From: a virus | Direction: 5' to 3' (one strand) | Virus record (IMG/VR): IMGVR_UViG_3300044618_000229 | Location: 1 to 24,457 of that record | Length of the DNA: 24,457 nt | Part shown: in pieces, positions 7,887 through 13,489 of the stretch | Numbering within the stretch: position 1 is the first letter of the stretch | How the letters are laid out: every line of letters starts with the position of its first letter | Position numbers and translations under genes: made by a program | The notes under the pieces: model-generated | Told to the model about the DNA's origin: nothing | Databases searched by the model: none | The model's input: only the letters and a program-made list of their open reading frames with translations

Positions 7887-8027
7887 ATGGACTCGCTGAT
7901 GATGGTCATTACGACCCTCTGCGACTGCATCGGAGCGGTGGACGATTCTAACTCACCGAATGCATTTGCCGTGAAGATGAAGATAGTGGACAAGATTGAC
8001 GAACTCATAGACAAAATCGAATACTAA
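7887..8027 (+). CDS. Small hypothetical protein, start uncertain
   Basis: A 46-residue protein from ATG 7887 (MDSLMMVITTLCDCIGAVDD, ending KIDELIDKIEY). The frame is open farther upstream, where a GTG at 7875 or TTG at 7839 would overlap the previous gene and add helical residues (AKDDQAQVQAR). An ATG at 7861 in another frame stops after 12 codons and is not a gene. It is predicted to be two helices. The stop shares its last base with the next start. The family is not recognised. Confidence 0.45.
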   Translation: MDSLMMVITTLCDCIGAVDDSNSPNAFAVKMKIVDKIDELIDKIEY

Positions 8028-8596
8028 TGAAACGAGTACCCATAGGCACAATCAAGAACAACCCGAACAACCCGAGGGTTATTAAAGACGACAAGTTCAA
8101 AAAACTCGTGCAGTCCATCAAAGACCTACCCGAAATGGCCGAGGTTCGTCCCGTTGTGGTCAATACCGATATGGTCGTGCTTGGAGGCAACATGAGGCTT
8201 AAGGCCATGCGTGAGGCAGGATGGAAGGACGTGCCGATTCATGTTGTGGATTGGAACGAGGACAAGCAAAGGCAGTTTATCATTAAGGACAACGTAAGCG
8301 GAGGGGAATGGGATTGGGAGATGCTGGCAAATCAATGGGATGAATTAGAACTGCAGGAATGGGGACTTGACGTTTGGAAAGCCCCGGCAGAGGTTGACTA
8401 CTCAATCTTAGATGAAGATGATTTAAGCGACCAAATTGACGGAATGGCATCAAACGTAATGAAGGCTATTCAAATTGAATTTGAACCCGAACATTACGAG
8501 CAGGCCTTTGAGTTGGTTAAGTTTTGGAGGCAGCAAAAACTTTACATTGGTGGCTTCTTGATGGAAAAACTTAAAGAAGAAAGGGAAAAACTGTGA
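8027..8596 (+). CDS. ParB/Srx-like domain protein
   Basis: A 189-residue protein with the ParB N-terminal fold: IGTIKNNPNNPRVIKDDKFK, then LVQSIKDLPEM, then RPVVVNTDMVVLGGNMRLKA and MREAGWKDVPIHVV. The GGNMR segment corresponds to the conserved G-(G/N)-x-R nucleotide-binding motif. After residue about 95 come an acidic linker and a C-terminal region of unknown fold (QIEFEPEHYEQAFELVKFWR). Phage ParB-like domains often sit beside DNA modification enzymes and may be CTP- or ATP-dependent. Here it directly precedes the glycosyltransferase (overlap 4 bases), so a DNA-related role in that pathway is plausible. Composition becomes AT-rich after about 8400. Confidence 0.75.
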   Translation: MKRVPIGTIKNNPNNPRVIKDDKFKKLVQSIKDLPEMAEVRPVVVNTDMVVLGGNMRLKAMREAGWKDVPIHVVDWNEDKQRQFIIKDNVSGGEWDWEMLANQWDELELQEWGLDVWKAPAEVDYSILDEDDLSDQIDGMASNVMKAIQIEFEPEHYEQAFELVKFWRQQKLYIGGFLMEKLKEEREKL

Positions 8597-9306
8597 GGTG
8601 TCTCGCTTTTATACCAAGCAAAGGGAGGCCCGACAACATAGCAAAAAATGTCGAACCTTTTATGCAAAGGCTTGGCATTGATTACAGGATATTTGTAGAG
8701 CCACAAGAAAAGGATATGTATAAGTTCAAGAACGTAATTGCCCTTGAACAAAACAACCAAGGGTTAGGATACTCAACCAAGTTTGCGAAAAAATATGCAG
8801 AAGAGAACGGGTATGACTTGGTTTTTAGGATTGACGATGACGTAAAAGGAATTGGGGAAATAGAGAAAGACTTAGACAAGATTGTTAAATCTTTTGGCAT
8901 TCCAAAGGTAGGAGCCGTTGTTTTTCCTTATGACTTTGAATGGTACGCAAAGTCCGAAAAACTATTCTCAAAAAAGAACAAACGCTGCCAAACTTGCTAT
9001 ATAATTAGGACGAACCTTTTTAGGCCGGAATGCAGCATAAGCACTTTTGACGATTTTTACCAATATTTACTGCTCCGAAATGATGGCTATGACACGCTTT
9101 TTTGTTCAAGGCATCTTATTGAGTGCGCCCCGGTAGGCAAAGGCAAAGGCGGTCTTCAAGCGTTTGACCGTTCGGAAATGGCATTAAGGGAAATAAATAT
9201 CTTTAAAAGTATTGACCCGACTATTGATGTTGTTTCAAAGCCCGATAAGCCTTGGAAGTTTGAGCCAAAATTCACGGACCGCAAATACAAAAGCAGTAAA
9301 TTATGA
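8593..9306 (+). CDS. TET-associated-type glycosyltransferase (TAGT-like)
   Basis: A 237-residue protein with a GTG start at 8593 overlapping the previous stop. The opening MRCLAFIPSKGRPDNIAKNV, then RIFVEPQEKDMY, then NNQGLGYSTKFAKKYAEENG and LVFRIDDDVKGIGE follow the GT-A pattern, with D81-D83 as the metal-binding acidic motif. PSKGR plus VEP...Y plus DDD is typical of the TET-associated glycosyltransferase family, which transfers sugars to hydroxymethylated bases in phage DNA. The next gene encodes a TET/JBP-like dioxygenase, which strengthens the call. The donor sugar is unknown. A glycan-modifying GT-A enzyme is the alternative. The gene is strongly AT-rich, unlike the virion genes. Confidence 0.7.
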   Translation: MRCLAFIPSKGRPDNIAKNVEPFMQRLGIDYRIFVEPQEKDMYKFKNVIALEQNNQGLGYSTKFAKKYAEENGYDLVFRIDDDVKGIGEIEKDLDKIVKSFGIPKVGAVVFPYDFEWYAKSEKLFSKKNKRCQTCYIIRTNLFRPECSISTFDDFYQYLLLRNDGYDTLFCSRHLIECAPVGKGKGGLQAFDRSEMALREINIFKSIDPTIDVVSKPDKPWKFEPKFTDRKYKSSKL

Positions 9307-10061
9307 AAAGAATAGACCTTGTCCAAGTTCAGCACTCCATAAAGATTGGGGATGATTGTCCATACATTGAGCCAAATGTAACCGAGGACTGCGTTCTTTA
9401 CTCGGAAGGGGAGGCAATAGGCTTTTACTTGACAAAGATGCCCGAGAAAATGTGCAAACTTGCCGACTTGGCAAATCACGAATTACAATCAAAAAGGGTG
9501 CCAAAGCAAGGAACCAAAAGGTCCGAAAGTGCAGGTGGTATAGTTCAGGAGTCTTGCATTATTGGGAGCGTTCCACCTAAACCACACATGAAAAGACCCT
9601 ACGCAAGTATAAGCAGCGTCCATCAAGTAGAGTCGGCCAAAACCTTTATTAAGGCCATGCTTCTTTTAGCCAGCGAAAGCGAGGGATTAATAAAGCAAAT
9701 CCTGCCACATCAACATGAAAGGCAGTTGGAGTTATTTCAAGGAGTGCCAAAAAAGTGGAGATTTGCAAACCTTTTTACAAGTTCTATCTCAAACTTCAAT
9801 ATATCGGCTCAATTTCATAGGGATGGAGGCAACATAGTTGGGGCCGTGAATGTGATAATCTGCAAGAAGCACAACTCCAAAGGAGGCGACCTGCATATTC
9901 CTGACTACGGAGCAACCGTCGGCCAGCAGGATAACTCGATTTTAGTGTACCCGGCTTGGAGGAATGTTCACGGGGTTACGCCTATAATTCCAACCCATGA
10001 GGGAGGCTATCGAAATAGCCTTGTTTTTTACCCTTTAAAGGCCTTTGTAGGGCTTCAATAA
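9303..10061 (+). CDS. TET/JBP-like 2-oxoglutarate, Fe(II)-dependent dioxygenase
   Basis: A 252-residue protein overlapping the glycosyltransferase by 4 bases. The C-terminal half carries the double-stranded beta-helix residues: FHRDGGN with H172 and D174, then GGDLHIPDYG, then D-NSILVYPAW, then NVHGVTP with H223, and YRNSLVFYPL with R237. H-x-D...H are the iron ligands and R the 2-oxoglutarate ligand; the GGxLxxPxYG spacing and RxSxVFY ending resemble TET/JBP enzymes. It would oxidise the methyl of 5-methylcytosine or thymine, so that the neighbouring enzyme can add sugar. A non-DNA dioxygenase cannot be excluded. The N-terminal 110 residues are unassigned. No C5 cytosine methylase is seen nearby. 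Confidence 0.68.
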   Translation: MKRIDLVQVQHSIKIGDDCPYIEPNVTEDCVLYSEGEAIGFYLTKMPEKMCKLADLANHELQSKRVPKQGTKRSESAGGIVQESCIIGSVPPKPHMKRPYASISSVHQVESAKTFIKAMLLLASESEGLIKQILPHQHERQLELFQGVPKKWRFANLFTSSISNFNISAQFHRDGGNIVGAVNVIICKKHNSKGGDLHIPDYGATVGQQDNSILVYPAWRNVHGVTPIIPTHEGGYRNSLVFYPLKAFVGLQ

Positions 10062-10077
10062 CTTCGGAGGAACATCG

Positions 10078-10509
10078 GTGCCAACCCAAGAAAAACAACC
10101 GCATGGTGGCTCTCTAACGAGGCCAAATAAGGGGGAGACAATGAACCCTAACGGTCGCCCCAAGAACTTGGAGAATTTGTTGCACGACCACTTCCTTGCT
10201 GAGCATAATCTTCGGCTCACGAAAGGGCAGGCACAAGCCATGATTCAAGTCATTCTCGGTAAAACCAAAAACGAGTTGATTGAAATGGCAAACAATAACG
10301 ACCTTCCTTTTTGGGTTGCATTAATTGCCAAGAAGGCAAATCGAGATTGGGAGAAGGGCAGCATCCATATTCTTGACGTTTTGTTTGACCGGGTTTACGG
10401 AAAACCAAAAGAAGAGGTTGTTCAAGTAATCCACGAAAGGCCTATTTTTACAGGCATCAATCTCGATGTTCAAGGAAACCAAAGCGCAGGCGAAGATAGC
10501 CAACCTTAA
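10078..10509 (+). CDS. terS: Terminase small subunit-like protein
   Basis: A 143-residue protein starting at GTG 10078, preceded by GGAGG (10066-10070), an unusually good Shine-Dalgarno for this window. An ATG at 10141 with GGGGGAG upstream is an alternative. N-terminal features RPNKGETMNPNGRPKN resemble the GxxxNPxGRPK opening of small phage DNA-binding proteins (DUF5681-like); the C-terminal helical part has KGSIHILDVLFDRVYGKPKE. Location directly before the large terminase (44-base overlap) supports a packaging role: recognising the pac or cos site and regulating the motor. Similarity alone is weak; context drives the call. Confidence 0.6.
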   Translation: MPTQEKQPHGGSLTRPNKGETMNPNGRPKNLENLLHDHFLAEHNLRLTKGQAQAMIQVILGKTKNELIEMANNNDLPFWVALIAKKANRDWEKGSIHILDVLFDRVYGKPKEEVVQVIHERPIFTGINLDVQGNQSAGEDSQP

Positions 10510-11641
10510 CAAAAGGGTCAGGGTTATTCAAGGAGGCACGTCTTCATCCAAGACTTTCAGCATTATTCCTTTGCTGATAACCTATGCGATTGATAATCCA
10601 AACTCCGAGATAAGCATCGTTTCCGAAAGCATCCCTCATCTTCGAAGAGGTGCGATGCGTGATTTCATTAAAATAATGGAATGGACTTCAAATTACAATC
10701 CTGACAACTGGAACAAAAGCAGTTTTACTTATCTTTTTAATAGCGGTTCGTTTATTGAGTTTTTTAGCGTTACCGAAGAATCAAAACTCCGAGGCGCAAG
10801 GCGTGATATCCTGTTTGTGAACGAGGCAAACAACGTCCCTTGGGAGGCCTTTCATCAACTATCAATTCGCACCAAAAAGTTTATTTACATCGACTATAAC
10901 CCGACCGCTGAGTTTTGGGCGCATACTGAATTGGTTGGAAAAAATGATACCGATTTTGTTATTTTAACCTACAAGGACAATGATGCTCTTGACCCTGCTA
11001 TCATCCGAGAGATTGAGAAGGCCAAGACCAAAGCCGAAACGTCTGCGTATTGGGCGAACTGGTGGAAGGTCTACGGCCTTGGTCAAGTCGGGACGCTTCA
11101 GGGTGCGATATACGAGGACTTCGAGGTGGTGGAGGGTATAGATGTCAGCCGTGCGAAATTCGTCGCCCTTGGGCTTGACTGGGGCTTTAGCAACGACCCT
11201 ACGGCCTTAGTCGCTATCTACCGGCAAGGGGACTGCCTACTCATCCAAGAACTGCTCTACTCCACGGGACTGACCAACCAAGACATCGCAGACAAGTTGC
11301 GGTCGCTGGGCATCACAAGGGCTTGGGAAATCGTGGCGGATTCAGCAGAACCGAAGTCCATCGAAGAAATCTATCGGTTAGGTTTCAATATCAAGCCAGC
11401 GGAGAAAGGCCCCGATTCGGTCAGGAACGGCATCGACATCCTGAAACGCTACAAGTTGCAGGTTACCAAGGATAGCACCAACCTCATCAAGGAACTGCGG
11501 TCCTACACTTGGGCAACCGACAAAGAGGGCAAGAACACGGGGGTCCCGATTGATTCATTCAACCACGCCTGCGACGCTATGCGGTATGTGGCACTCAACA
11601 AGTTACGGGTCAGTAACTCAGGGAAGTACGTTGTGGTTTAA
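10466..11641 (+). CDS. terL: Terminase large subunit
   Basis: A 391-residue packaging motor protein. The ATPase domain has Walker A QGGTSSSKT (G23-T30) and Walker B-type DILFVNEA (residues 114-121, catalytic E120). The RNase H-like nuclease domain has GLDWGFSNDPTA (D238), IVADSAEPKS (D292) and a C-terminal HACDAMRY with D370 as the three metal-binding acids. It translocates DNA into the prohead and cuts concatemers. Size and motifs fit the PBSX/XtmB-like (Terminase_3) group. The first about 175 codons are AT-rich and the rest GC-rich, which suggests a mosaic joint between the two domains. It is preceded by terS; the expected portal gene does not follow. Confidence 0.93.
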   Translation: MFKETKAQAKIANLNKRVRVIQGGTSSSKTFSIIPLLITYAIDNPNSEISIVSESIPHLRRGAMRDFIKIMEWTSNYNPDNWNKSSFTYLFNSGSFIEFFSVTEESKLRGARRDILFVNEANNVPWEAFHQLSIRTKKFIYIDYNPTAEFWAHTELVGKNDTDFVILTYKDNDALDPAIIREIEKAKTKAETSAYWANWWKVYGLGQVGTLQGAIYEDFEVVEGIDVSRAKFVALGLDWGFSNDPTALVAIYRQGDCLLIQELLYSTGLTNQDIADKLRSLGITRAWEIVADSAEPKSIEEIYRLGFNIKPAEKGPDSVRNGIDILKRYKLQVTKDSTNLIKELRSYTWATDKEGKNTGVPIDSFNHACDAMRYVALNKLRVSNSGKYVVV

Positions 11642-11650
11642 CTTTGAGGC

Positions 11651-11752
11651 ATGAACACCGAACGCATCATCGACCTGCTAATCGAAATCGGGAAGACGCT
11701 TGCAGCCCTTTTCTTCATCATCACCCTTCTAACCCTCCTTTGGACCTTATGA
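11651..11752 (+). CDS. Very small single-pass membrane protein
   Basis: A 33-residue frame 9 bases after the terminase stop. A polar N-terminus (MNTERIIDLLIEIGK) is followed by one hydrophobic stretch (TLAALFFIITLLTLLW) and it ends with TL. Its stop overlaps the next start (ATGA), which argues that it is translated. It has no known family and might be a holin-type or membrane anchor peptide; nothing more can be said. Confidence 0.5.
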   Translation: MNTERIIDLLIEIGKTLAALFFIITLLTLLWTL

Positions 11753-12402
11753 AAGTCGTTCACTACTACCACATCTACTGCGGAGGGAATTGGCAGTTAA
11801 TCCTCAACCAGCACATGATGGCGGTCTGCAATTACGGCCTCATCAATGTCTTGGATGAGATAAGGGTCGGCATTGTCGGTCCACCCGAACAACGCAAGGC
11901 GGTCAAGGAGGTGCTGGAGAACTCGATGGTGGCCGATAAGGTCAAGGTCGTGGTTACCCGAACCAACGCTTGGGAGCAGGCGACGCTTACCGAGATGTAC
12001 CGGGCCTCGCAGGAAGAAGAAGCCGTGTACCTCTACGCCCACACGAAGGGGGCAAGCGACCCATCCCTCATCAACCAACTTTGGAATCGAAGCATGACCT
12101 TCTTTAACGTCGTGGCTTGGGAACGCTGCCTGCAACTGCTGGAAGGTGTGGATGCAGTCGGCTGCCATTGGATTACCAAGGAGCAGTTCCCTCACATGGC
12201 GGACCACAACAACCCCGACGGCTACCCATACTTCGGTGGAACCTATTGGTGGGCCAAGTCCGAGCATATTAAAGAACTGGGCGAACCTGTACGGGACCAC
12301 CGCTGGCAAGCCGAGCATTGGATTGGAAAGAAGCCCGATACGAAGGTCCACGATACCAACCCCGGATGGCCTTCACCCGAACGCTTTGTCATAACCTTCT
12401 AA
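11749..12402 (+). CDS. Glycosyltransferase-like protein (RgpF-like)
   Basis: A 217-residue protein. The ATG at 11749 overlaps the small peptide stop, while the frame is open from 11644. The motif EEAVYLYAHTKGASD (HTKGAS at 98-103) and CHWITKEQFPHMADHNNPDG, then FGGTYWWAKSEHIK resemble rhamnan-synthesis RgpF-like and related GT-A enzymes, which often have an HTK(G/K)xS motif. A DxD motif is not obvious, so the donor is not predictable. It is the first of three linked genes (two glycosyltransferases and a methyltransferase), which probably modify a glycan, for instance on the virion or host surface. The role is inferred. Confidence 0.6.
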   Translation: MKVVHYYHIYCGGNWQLILNQHMMAVCNYGLINVLDEIRVGIVGPPEQRKAVKEVLENSMVADKVKVVVTRTNAWEQATLTEMYRASQEEEAVYLYAHTKGASDPSLINQLWNRSMTFFNVVAWERCLQLLEGVDAVGCHWITKEQFPHMADHNNPDGYPYFGGTYWWAKSEHIKELGEPVRDHRWQAEHWIGKKPDTKVHDTNPGWPSPERFVITF

Positions 12403-12944
12403 TGTCTTTCATCAACATCGTTACACCCTGCTCAAGACCCGAAAGCCTTGGGGCCATTGCGGATTCAATAAACATTCCCAAGAATCATTACAGGTGGATT
12501 GTGGTGTTTGATGCAGACGAGGTTCCATCCGTTGAAATTCCTGCAAATGCAGAGGCACACTCCTACCACGTTGAAGGAGGTTCTGCTGGACACGCCCAAA
12601 GGAACTTCGCAAACAAACTGATTCAAGGTGGCTATGTCTTGCAAATTGATGATGATACCATCCTGCATCCTGATTTTTGGGAAGCGGTCAAGGACTGCAC
12701 CGAAGACTTGGTATGTTGGAAGCAGTGCCACAAAGACGGCCTACACCGTCTAAATGCAGGTGAGTGGCATCTCGGCCACATTGACTCCGGGTCTTTTATG
12801 GCTGACCGCAAAGTCATAGGCGACTCTCAATGGATTTTCAACCGATATGATGCGGATGGTTACTTTGCACAAGAGATGCGAGCCAAGACCGAAAGCGTTA
12901 AAACAATTCAACAATACCTTTCATTTTACAACTATTTACGATGA
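12402..12944 (+). CDS. Family 2-like glycosyltransferase
   Basis: A 180-residue protein sharing one base with the previous stop (TAATG). It starts with MSFINIVTPCSRPESLGAIA, then RWIVVFDADE; the core has SAGHAQRNFANKLIQGGYVL followed by QIDDDTILHPDFWE with D83-D85. These are the GT-A nucleotide-sugar and metal-binding features of small GT2-like enzymes. It is shorter than classical GT2 proteins but comparable to phage versions. It overlaps the methyltransferase by 4 bases, so the two are probably coordinated. The substrate is unknown. Confidence 0.7.
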   Translation: MSFINIVTPCSRPESLGAIADSINIPKNHYRWIVVFDADEVPSVEIPANAEAHSYHVEGGSAGHAQRNFANKLIQGGYVLQIDDDTILHPDFWEAVKDCTEDLVCWKQCHKDGLHRLNAGEWHLGHIDSGSFMADRKVIGDSQWIFNRYDADGYFAQEMRAKTESVKTIQQYLSFYNYLR

Positions 12945-13489
12945 AATACAGCGAAGTATCAAAAGACAACCGATTGCAGGAATTACGCAATACACCGAGG
13001 GTTTATTGGACCGCCCTTGAGAATGAAAATAAGGTGGACGGCCTCATTGACCTTTGCCAAAAGTACCTCAAGCCAACGGACAAGTGCGTAGAGGTTGGAT
13101 GCTTTTCAGGGGTCAGCAGTCGTGTAATTGCGCTTCACTGCGGAGAGTTGCACTGCATTGACCCTTGGTCTTGGGGCGCAGTAGCACAAGCCGAGCAAAT
13201 GTTTGACTCAATGCTTGCGAACTACCCCAACATCGCCAAGGTTAAGATGACCAGCGTTGAGGCATCCAAGCAATATGCCGATGGCTCCCTTGACTTCGTG
13301 TACGTTGACGCTGACCATTCCTACGCCTCGGTCGTGGAAGACATCAACGCTTGGAAGCCCAAGGTCAAGCCGGGCGGTTACATTGCAGGACACGACTCGT
13401 ATATGCCCGAAGTCTTGAAGGCGGTCATGGACTGCCTCGGTGAACCCTTGCAATACTTCACCGATACCTCTTGGATTGTCAAACTATGA
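12941..13489 (+). CDS. Class I SAM-dependent methyltransferase (Methyltransf_24-like)
   Basis: A 182-residue protein. Motif I is CVEVGCFSGVSS (residues 49-60), followed by LHCIDPWSW, and later SLDFVYVDADHSYASVVEDI and KPGGYIAGHDSY, the usual order of Methyltransf_24 proteins. These commonly methylate small molecules or sugars, not DNA. No PCQ-type C5 cytosine motif or DPPY is present, so it is not the missing DNA methylase. Clustered with two glycosyltransferases (4-base overlaps), it probably methylates a sugar or glycan. The next gene also overlaps it by 4 bases. Confidence 0.8.
   Translation: MKYSEVSKDNRLQELRNTPRVYWTALENENKVDGLIDLCQKYLKPTDKCVEVGCFSGVSSRVIALHCGELHCIDPWSWGAVAQAEQMFDSMLANYPNIAKVKMTSVEASKQYADGSLDFVYVDADHSYASVVEDINAWKPKVKPGGYIAGHDSYMPEVLKAVMDCLGEPLQYFTDTSWIVKL

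Follow-up and report, generated by a model that had tools for sequence, protein, structure and literature searches.

A phage system in which TET, TAGT and a C5 methylase together hypermodify cytosine is said to have been described by Burke et al. in 2021, and the TET/JBP and TAGT families reportedly go back to Iyer et al. in 2013. On the side of thymine, the base J pathway, described as a kinetoplastid modification, combines the thymidine hydroxylases JBP1 and JBP2 with a base J-associated glucosyltransferase (PMC10276184), and the thymidine route of phages M6, ViI and phi W-14 uses a 5-hydroxymethyldeoxyuridine (5hmdU) DNA kinase and alkylamine transferases (PMC6449724). A thymidine hypermodification system has also been proposed by the authors of the work on phage Tonitrus (PMC11955845). 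Phage TET/JBP and TAGT genes, and a thymidine system of ParB, TET, ADDT and kinase, are thus already described or proposed. In this study, we analyzed the IMG/VR virus record IMGVR_UViG_3300044618_000229, a virus sequence of 24,457 bases that is probably a fragment and whose whole length we call the window. It contains three overlapping genes for a ParB-fold protein, a TAGT-type glycosyltransferase and a TET/JBP-type dioxygenase, and we consider it probable that these form a cassette for the hypermodification of thymine in phage DNA, in which the decorating gene is exchangeable. Judging from the gene content, the product would most likely be glycosylated 5-hydroxymethyluracil (5hmU), a phage analogue of base J.

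Results

The three genes of the cassette are as follows.

8027..8596, + strand: ParB_N-domain protein (ParB-CTPase/Srx fold), 189 amino acids, upstream bookend; assigned from Pfam ParB_N, PHROG and the GxxR P-motif
8593..9306, + strand: TAGT-family GT-A glycosyltransferase, 237 amino acids, occupant of the exchangeable slot; assigned from PF20691, PHROG, model fold and motifs
9303..10061, + strand: TET/JBP-family Fe(II)/2-oxoglutarate dioxygenase, 252 amino acids, downstream bookend and predicted thymine hydroxylase; assigned from PF12851, catalytic residues and model fold

Consecutive open reading frames (ORFs) share 4 bases, GTGA at 8593-8596 between ParB and TAGT and ATGA at 9303-9306 between TAGT and TET. 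The first-pass annotation of this DNA had described overlaps of 4 bases or 1 base; both internal junctions are of the 4-base kind, and the 1-base overlap lies on the 5' side of the cassette, in TAATG at 8027. The same annotation had named the genes ParB-like, TAGT and TET/JBP, and this naming was borne out by profile search, in which all three exceeded the Pfam cut-offs. When the genes were compared with those of L005, whose TET is 99% identical, the ratio of synonymous to nonsynonymous codon changes was 23:2 in TET, 18:1 in ParB and 13:2 in TAGT. These mostly synonymous changes indicate purifying selection, and accordingly working genes rather than chance frames.

The dioxygenase matched Tet_JBP (PF12851) in Pfam with E=5.3e-10 and 39.2 bits against a cut-off of 34.9. 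This was the sole match above a cut-off in the 252-residue protein, and no J-binding domain as in JBP1 was found by Pfam. Residues H172, D174, H223 and R237 are invariant among 124 phage relatives. A search of the PDB with the single sequences matched no TET or glycosyltransferase; the TET matches emerged with the family profile, which found TET2 (E=3e-8), CcTet (4e-3) and NgTet1 (0.02-0.03), and its alignment with TET2 pairs H172, D174 and H223 with the iron triad and R237 with the 2-oxoglutarate arginine. The AlphaFold2 model had a mean predicted local distance difference test (pLDDT) score of 92.2, and its best 26 PDB fold matches in Foldseek were TET2, CcTet, NgTet1 and CMD1, with FTO and AlkB coming after them; among double-stranded beta-helix folds, it is thus nearest to the TET enzymes. 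The family profile, the invariant residues and the fold comparison agree with the earlier assignment to TET/JBP, and none of them places the enzyme in a protein-acting or small-molecule-acting family.

The glycosyltransferase matched TAGT (PF20691) with E=4.1e-10 and 40.4 bits against a cut-off of 27.5, over profile positions 4-94 of 205, and its PHROG match was beta-glucosyl-HMC-alpha-glucosyltransferase (E=3e-11). The motifs PSKGR and DDD, from which it had been called a TAGT-type GT-A enzyme, occupy residues 8-12 and 81-83, the latter being an acidic motif of the DxD type, and all 18 relatives compared share P-[ST]K-x-R, DDD and GGL. The model of this protein (pLDDT 87) resembled best the GT-A enzymes SpsA, TarS and TarP, which upholds that call.

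For the ParB-fold protein, the ParB_N profile gave E=6.9e-8 and 32.9 bits against a cut-off of 26.3, and the PHROG matches were to ParB-DNA methyltransferase and ParB families (compare PHROG 498). In the aligned GxxR P-motif, G54 is present in 100 of 103 relatives and R57 in 92 of 103. Phages carry the ParB-CTPase fold fused to DNA methyltransferases (PMC12704722), which agrees with a DNA-loading role for this protein. We consider it a probable DNA-tracking or targeting subunit.

Scans of viral contigs gave hundreds of TET relatives, and removal of near-copies left 119 distinct TETs, outgroups included, in a sample biased towards the query. The Tonitrus TET, used as a query against the viral contigs, gave no match. 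Most of the 119 TETs have a ParB gene upstream, with a variable segment between the two genes. The contents of this slot were as follows.

FkbM methyltransferase alone (PF05050): 51 of 119, plus one that also has a small additional ORF
TAGT-type glycosyltransferase alone (PF20691): 35 of 119
Second glycosyltransferase-like protein, 301 amino acids: 3 of 119, with no Pfam match and assigned by eye
Sets containing an amino acid:DNA transferase (ADDT, PF18724): 4 of 119 (L021, L024, L036 and L008)
TAGT with a sulfotransferase (Sulfotransfer_2, PF03567): 1 of 119 (L063)
No gene, with ParB directly abutting TET: L077, L116 and L133

The cassette is modular, in that ParB and TET are retained at its two ends and the middle gene changes from phage to phage, a feature that the first-pass annotation had not noted. 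Across the relatives, identity to the window is mostly about 54-68% for ParB and mostly 69-79% for TET, and the terminases of the same relatives range from 26% to more than 60% identity to that of the window or were undetected. On a maximum-likelihood tree of TET, the slot label requires at least 35 changes, and the well-supported branches alone force 12 changes for FkbM and 11 for the TAGT type. The exchange can also be seen in nearly collinear pairs. L195 and L193 are collinear, with 81-89% DNA identity on both flanks, and differ only in the stretch between ParB, which matches to its last base, and TET, which matches from its first; this stretch holds FkbM in one and TAGT in the other. L130 and L161 likewise have 93% DNA identity on both flanks and FkbM versus TAGT in between, and L024 and L037, with 77-82% DNA identity upstream and 80% downstream, have an ADDT set versus TAGT. 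In such pairs, the breakpoints lie at gene ends or within about 15 bases of them. TAGT-type and FkbM genes occurred together in the slot in none of the 119 cassettes, and this mutual exclusion indicates that they act as alternatives.

The composition of the slot also bears on two explanations that would not require a decorated base made by the TAGT enzyme. On the one hand, TET could make 5hmU while the TAGT-type enzyme puts its sugar on a protein of the virion or on a surface glycan instead of DNA, the position in the slot serving expression only. GT-A enzymes are common in phages, and the window has another glycosyltransferase and methyltransferase group, at 11644-13489 after the terminase, that is unlinked to TET. 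However, the TAGT family is defined by its association with TET, and a TAGT-type gene stands beside TET in 36 of the 119 distinct cassettes, mostly with 4-base overlaps as here, alternating with DNA-modification enzymes; we consider this explanation very unlikely. On the other hand, the TET could serve counter-defence by oxidizing and erasing 5-methylcytosine (5mC) marks of the host, or could alter gene regulation, with no stable decorated base. Animal TET enzymes are generally known to act in demethylation, and the empty slots of L077, L116 and L133 would suit such a role, but the transferase between ParB and TET in most cassettes fits addition rather than removal, and we give this explanation hardly any credence.

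The FkbM version of the cassette, ParB-FkbM-TET, is present in the cultured Prochlorococcus phages MED4-184 (L082, 15790-17914) and MED4-117 (L083, 12347-14471). By analogy with the TAGT version, the predicted product of the FkbM version would be 5-(methoxymethyl)uracil, made by O-methylation of 5hmU. In these two phages, the names given to the cassette genes in RefSeq and PHROG appear to be wrong; the MED4-184 genes that RefSeq calls "queuine tRNA-ribosyltransferase" and "DNA methylase" are TET and ParB, respectively, and we rejected both names.

Several other arrangements were observed. The slot of L063 (947-3058) holds a TAGT-type glycosyltransferase together with a Sulfotransfer_2 protein (E=4e-16), a combination that might place a sulfated sugar on the DNA. 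L260 (3115-4582) has two glycosyltransferase-like slot genes, Gly_transf_sug (PF04488) and a TAGT-like gene, and L263 (4574-6004) has the same layout, so that a two-sugar decoration is possible in both. Pelagibacter phage HTVC112P (L265, 4036-6258) has the order ParB-TET-FkbM with a TET of another clade; its FkbM protein is 29% identical to that of MED4-184, and the pairing of ParB, TET and FkbM is independent there.

Regarding the target base, which the first-pass annotation had left open between cytosine and thymine, the gene context now favors thymine. ADDT is found in slots whose TETs are 73-79% identical to that of the window, and the TETs of L021 and L037 share 93% identity, with GATase-like, GNAT-like, ADDT and P-loop (ATPase-like) genes in the slot of L021 and TAGT in that of L037. 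ADDT also adjoins a TET of the window's clade in the complete actinophages CaiB, Tonitrus, LilMcDreamy and Kozie, and Ploopntkinase3 is present in CaiB and Tonitrus (E=8e-59 and 4e-50). No C5 methylase (PF00145) was found in the whole window record, in accordance with the earlier annotation, nor in the complete genomes of MED4-184, MED4-117, Nigel, Tonitrus, CaiB, Margaery, Kozie and LilMcDreamy. A thymidylate-synthase-type enzyme (PF00303), which could make hydroxymethyl nucleotides, was found neither in the window nor in any of 57 related records. Considering that thymine needs no methyl donor, the cassette would be complete as it stands. Based on the ADDT-linked TETs, the actinophage sets and the absence of both a C5 methylase and a thymidylate-synthase-type enzyme, thymine is the likely target base.

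Several points weigh against thymine. Among 58 records of other phage TETs (P12024L, Cr30 and T4-like phages), 57 likewise showed no C5 methylase, so that its absence is weak evidence, on which the case for thymine does not depend; the absence is further limited by the window record probably being a 24.5 kb fragment, and the host may supply 5mC. The P-loop gene of L021 matches no family above the cut-off, and accordingly ADDT alone carries the thymidine link in that record. Human TET2 also has Asn at the position contacting N4 of the base, so that N177 of the window's TET is compatible with cytosine.

These points lead to the cytosine route, in which TET would oxidize 5mC supplied by a C5 methylase of the host or encoded far away in the phage, and TAGT would glycosylate the resulting 5-hydroxymethylcytosine. 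A characterized phage TET works in C5-cytosine hypermodification, as relayed from Burke et al. 2021 in passages of PMC12730594 and PMC11347163, and in T6-like phages, relatives of TAGT have been given a role in making glucosylated hydroxymethylcytosine (PMC13390438). A C5 methylase is present somewhere in 7 of 68 records of the window's TET clade, but never closer than about 4 kb to the TET by the listed coordinates. It also speaks against this route that ADDT, a family of the thymidine pathway, is paired in L021 with a TET that shares 93% identity with the TAGT-linked TET of L037. As a general rule, we also rejected FkbM as a hidden supplier of 5mC: both kinds of cassette would need a supplier, yet FkbM and TAGT do not share a slot.

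The residues at the base bear on the same choice. The base-contact roles of TET residues, including contact with N4 of 5mC, and the action of human TET2 on 5mC have been described (PMC11040006). In the window's clade, N177 and Leu or Ile at position 245 are each present in 115 of 115 TETs, and the other nine all have Asp and Arg. Position 245 corresponds to the O2-contacting His1904 of TET2, with His297 in NgTet1 and Arg393 in CcTet as counterparts, and its occupation by Leu or Ile throughout the clade argues against the cytosine route. We tried N177 with Leu/Ile245 as a rule for telling cytosine from thymine and rejected it, since human TET2 has the Asn and the TET of Synechococcus phage S-CBWM1 mixes Asn with Arg at the two contact positions. 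The signature marks the clade and is not proof of substrate. Methylophilales phage Melnitz-3, the only C5 methylase carrier among the 58 records with other phage TETs and the only isolate found with the two genes adjacent, has an HhaI-type C5 methylase (E=2e-56) that overlaps its TET gene; this TET, which falls outside the window's clade, carries Asp where N4 is contacted. Taking both sides together, we consider the cytosine route unlikely and retain thymine as the likely target.

The other phage TETs showed further features. Nonlabens phage P12024L (L170, 7119-9384) has adjoining genes for TET, TAGT and a DNA methyltransferase with a DPPY motif. It was rejected as a C5-methylase comparison case because this motif is of the N6/N4 type and the complete genome is without a C5 methylase. 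The TETs of L166 (7554-8882), L189 (5404-7916) and L264 (3024-4370) belong to T4-like or related large phages (Cr30, DLP_6 and many contigs). TETs of this T4-like group are extended at the N terminus by a region with the annotation "SNF2 DNA repair protein" and are without a C5 methylase, and in L189 and L190 a glycosyltransferase-like gene follows the TET.

Downstream of the cassette, two genes mark its boundary.

10078..10509, + strand: small terminase-like ORF, boundary marker outside the modification system; weak DUF5681 match (E=1.3e-4, under the cut-off) and phrog_15125
10466..11641, + strand: large terminase, boundary marker; Terminase_3C E=6e-17, 48% identity to Flavobacterium psychrophilum phages

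The cassette had been placed directly before the terminase; a terminase does follow, but the small terminase-like ORF intervenes before the large one. The large terminase is closest to those of the F. psychrophilum phages, and a related cassette was found in three contigs of metagenome-assembled genomes, one of which is from Flavobacteriaceae. From this kinship and the Flavobacteriaceae contig, the host of the virus is likely a member of Bacteroidota.

The second sugar-related group, at 11644-13489, lies between the large terminase and the structural genes and consists of a glycosyltransferase-like ORF without a Pfam match, a GT2-like protein (12318-12944, under the cut-off) and an S-adenosylmethionine methyltransferase (Methyltransf_24). 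In L005, the middle gene of this group is swapped for a different glycosyltransferase-like gene and both neighbors are retained. This group may be a second exchangeable slot.

Discussion

Gene identities, catalytic residues, fold, conservation and slot exchange were observed directly, and on them we build the following proposal. The ParB-fold protein would load onto or track replicated phage DNA and bring the enzymes there before packaging. TET would then hydroxylate the 5-methyl group of thymine in the finished DNA to give 5hmU, and the TAGT enzyme would put a sugar on the new hydroxyl group, so that a nucleotide resembling base J results. The modified DNA would be packaged by the neighboring terminase and may be protected from host nucleases. 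The thymine target, the order of these steps and the role of ParB belong, like this protection, to the inferred part of the explanation. If so, replacement of one gene would change the chemical group on the phage DNA while the hydroxylation chassis is kept, and the slot exchange suggests that the viral DNA wears a chemical disguise that is readily altered.

A broader proposal, about which we are evenly divided, is that a plug-in thymine platform, with fixed ParB and TET/JBP and an interchangeable decorator, is common to phages that infect several bacterial phyla. TAGT would yield the base J-like nucleotide, FkbM in the Prochlorococcus phages MED4-184, P-HS2 and MED4-117 would yield 5-(methoxymethyl)uracil, and gene-exact recombination would switch the DNA chemistry of near-identical phages. 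The swappable ParB-X-TET platform and the use of FkbM appear to be new. Our literature search, which did not extend to Iyer 2013, Burke 2021 and Lee 2021, found no description of an exchangeable ParB-X-TET slot, of FkbM in this role or of a phage base J.

If the proposal is true, a phage route from thymine through TET/JBP to a glycosyltransferase would be a prokaryotic counterpart of base J, and it would be relevant to the proposal that the TET/JBP family originated in phages. The exchange in the slot also provides a natural experiment, in which near-identical phages are one decorator gene apart; such pairs suit the study of how decoration affects restriction enzymes, type IV nucleases and CRISPR. 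Because the FkbM version is present in cultured Prochlorococcus phages, the prediction is directly testable. Additionally, the cassettes offer candidate DNA-acting methyl-, glycosyl- and sulfotransferases as tools.

Among known systems, the phage TET-TAGT-C5 methylase system resembles the window in encoding a TET/JBP dioxygenase and a TAGT glycosyltransferase together. However, the window is without an adjacent C5 methylase, has the order ParB-TAGT-TET beside the terminase, and belongs to a clade with Asn and Leu at two base-contact positions, where the other clade has mostly Asp and Arg. The thymidine hypermodification of M6, ViI and phi W-14 shares with the window the post-replicative decoration of 5hmU, which is predicted here; in M6-type phages, however, 5hmU is made as a nucleotide by a thymidylate-synthase-like enzyme, and none was found in the window. 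Tonitrus, with its ParB-TET/JBP-ADDT-kinase set, and other actinophages have a TET of the window's clade together with ParB, and some relatives of the window have ADDT in the slot. Different from both the M6-type phages and Tonitrus, the window has a glycosyltransferase in place of the kinase and ADDT. As in base J synthesis, a TET/JBP dioxygenase is predicted to hydroxylate thymine in DNA, after which a glycosyltransferase would act on hydroxymethyluracil (PMC10276184). In contrast to the base J pathway, the phage cassette consists of three overlapping genes including ParB, its dioxygenase is without a J-binding domain, and its glycosyltransferase is a TAGT-type GT-A enzyme, a decorator that is exchanged between phages.

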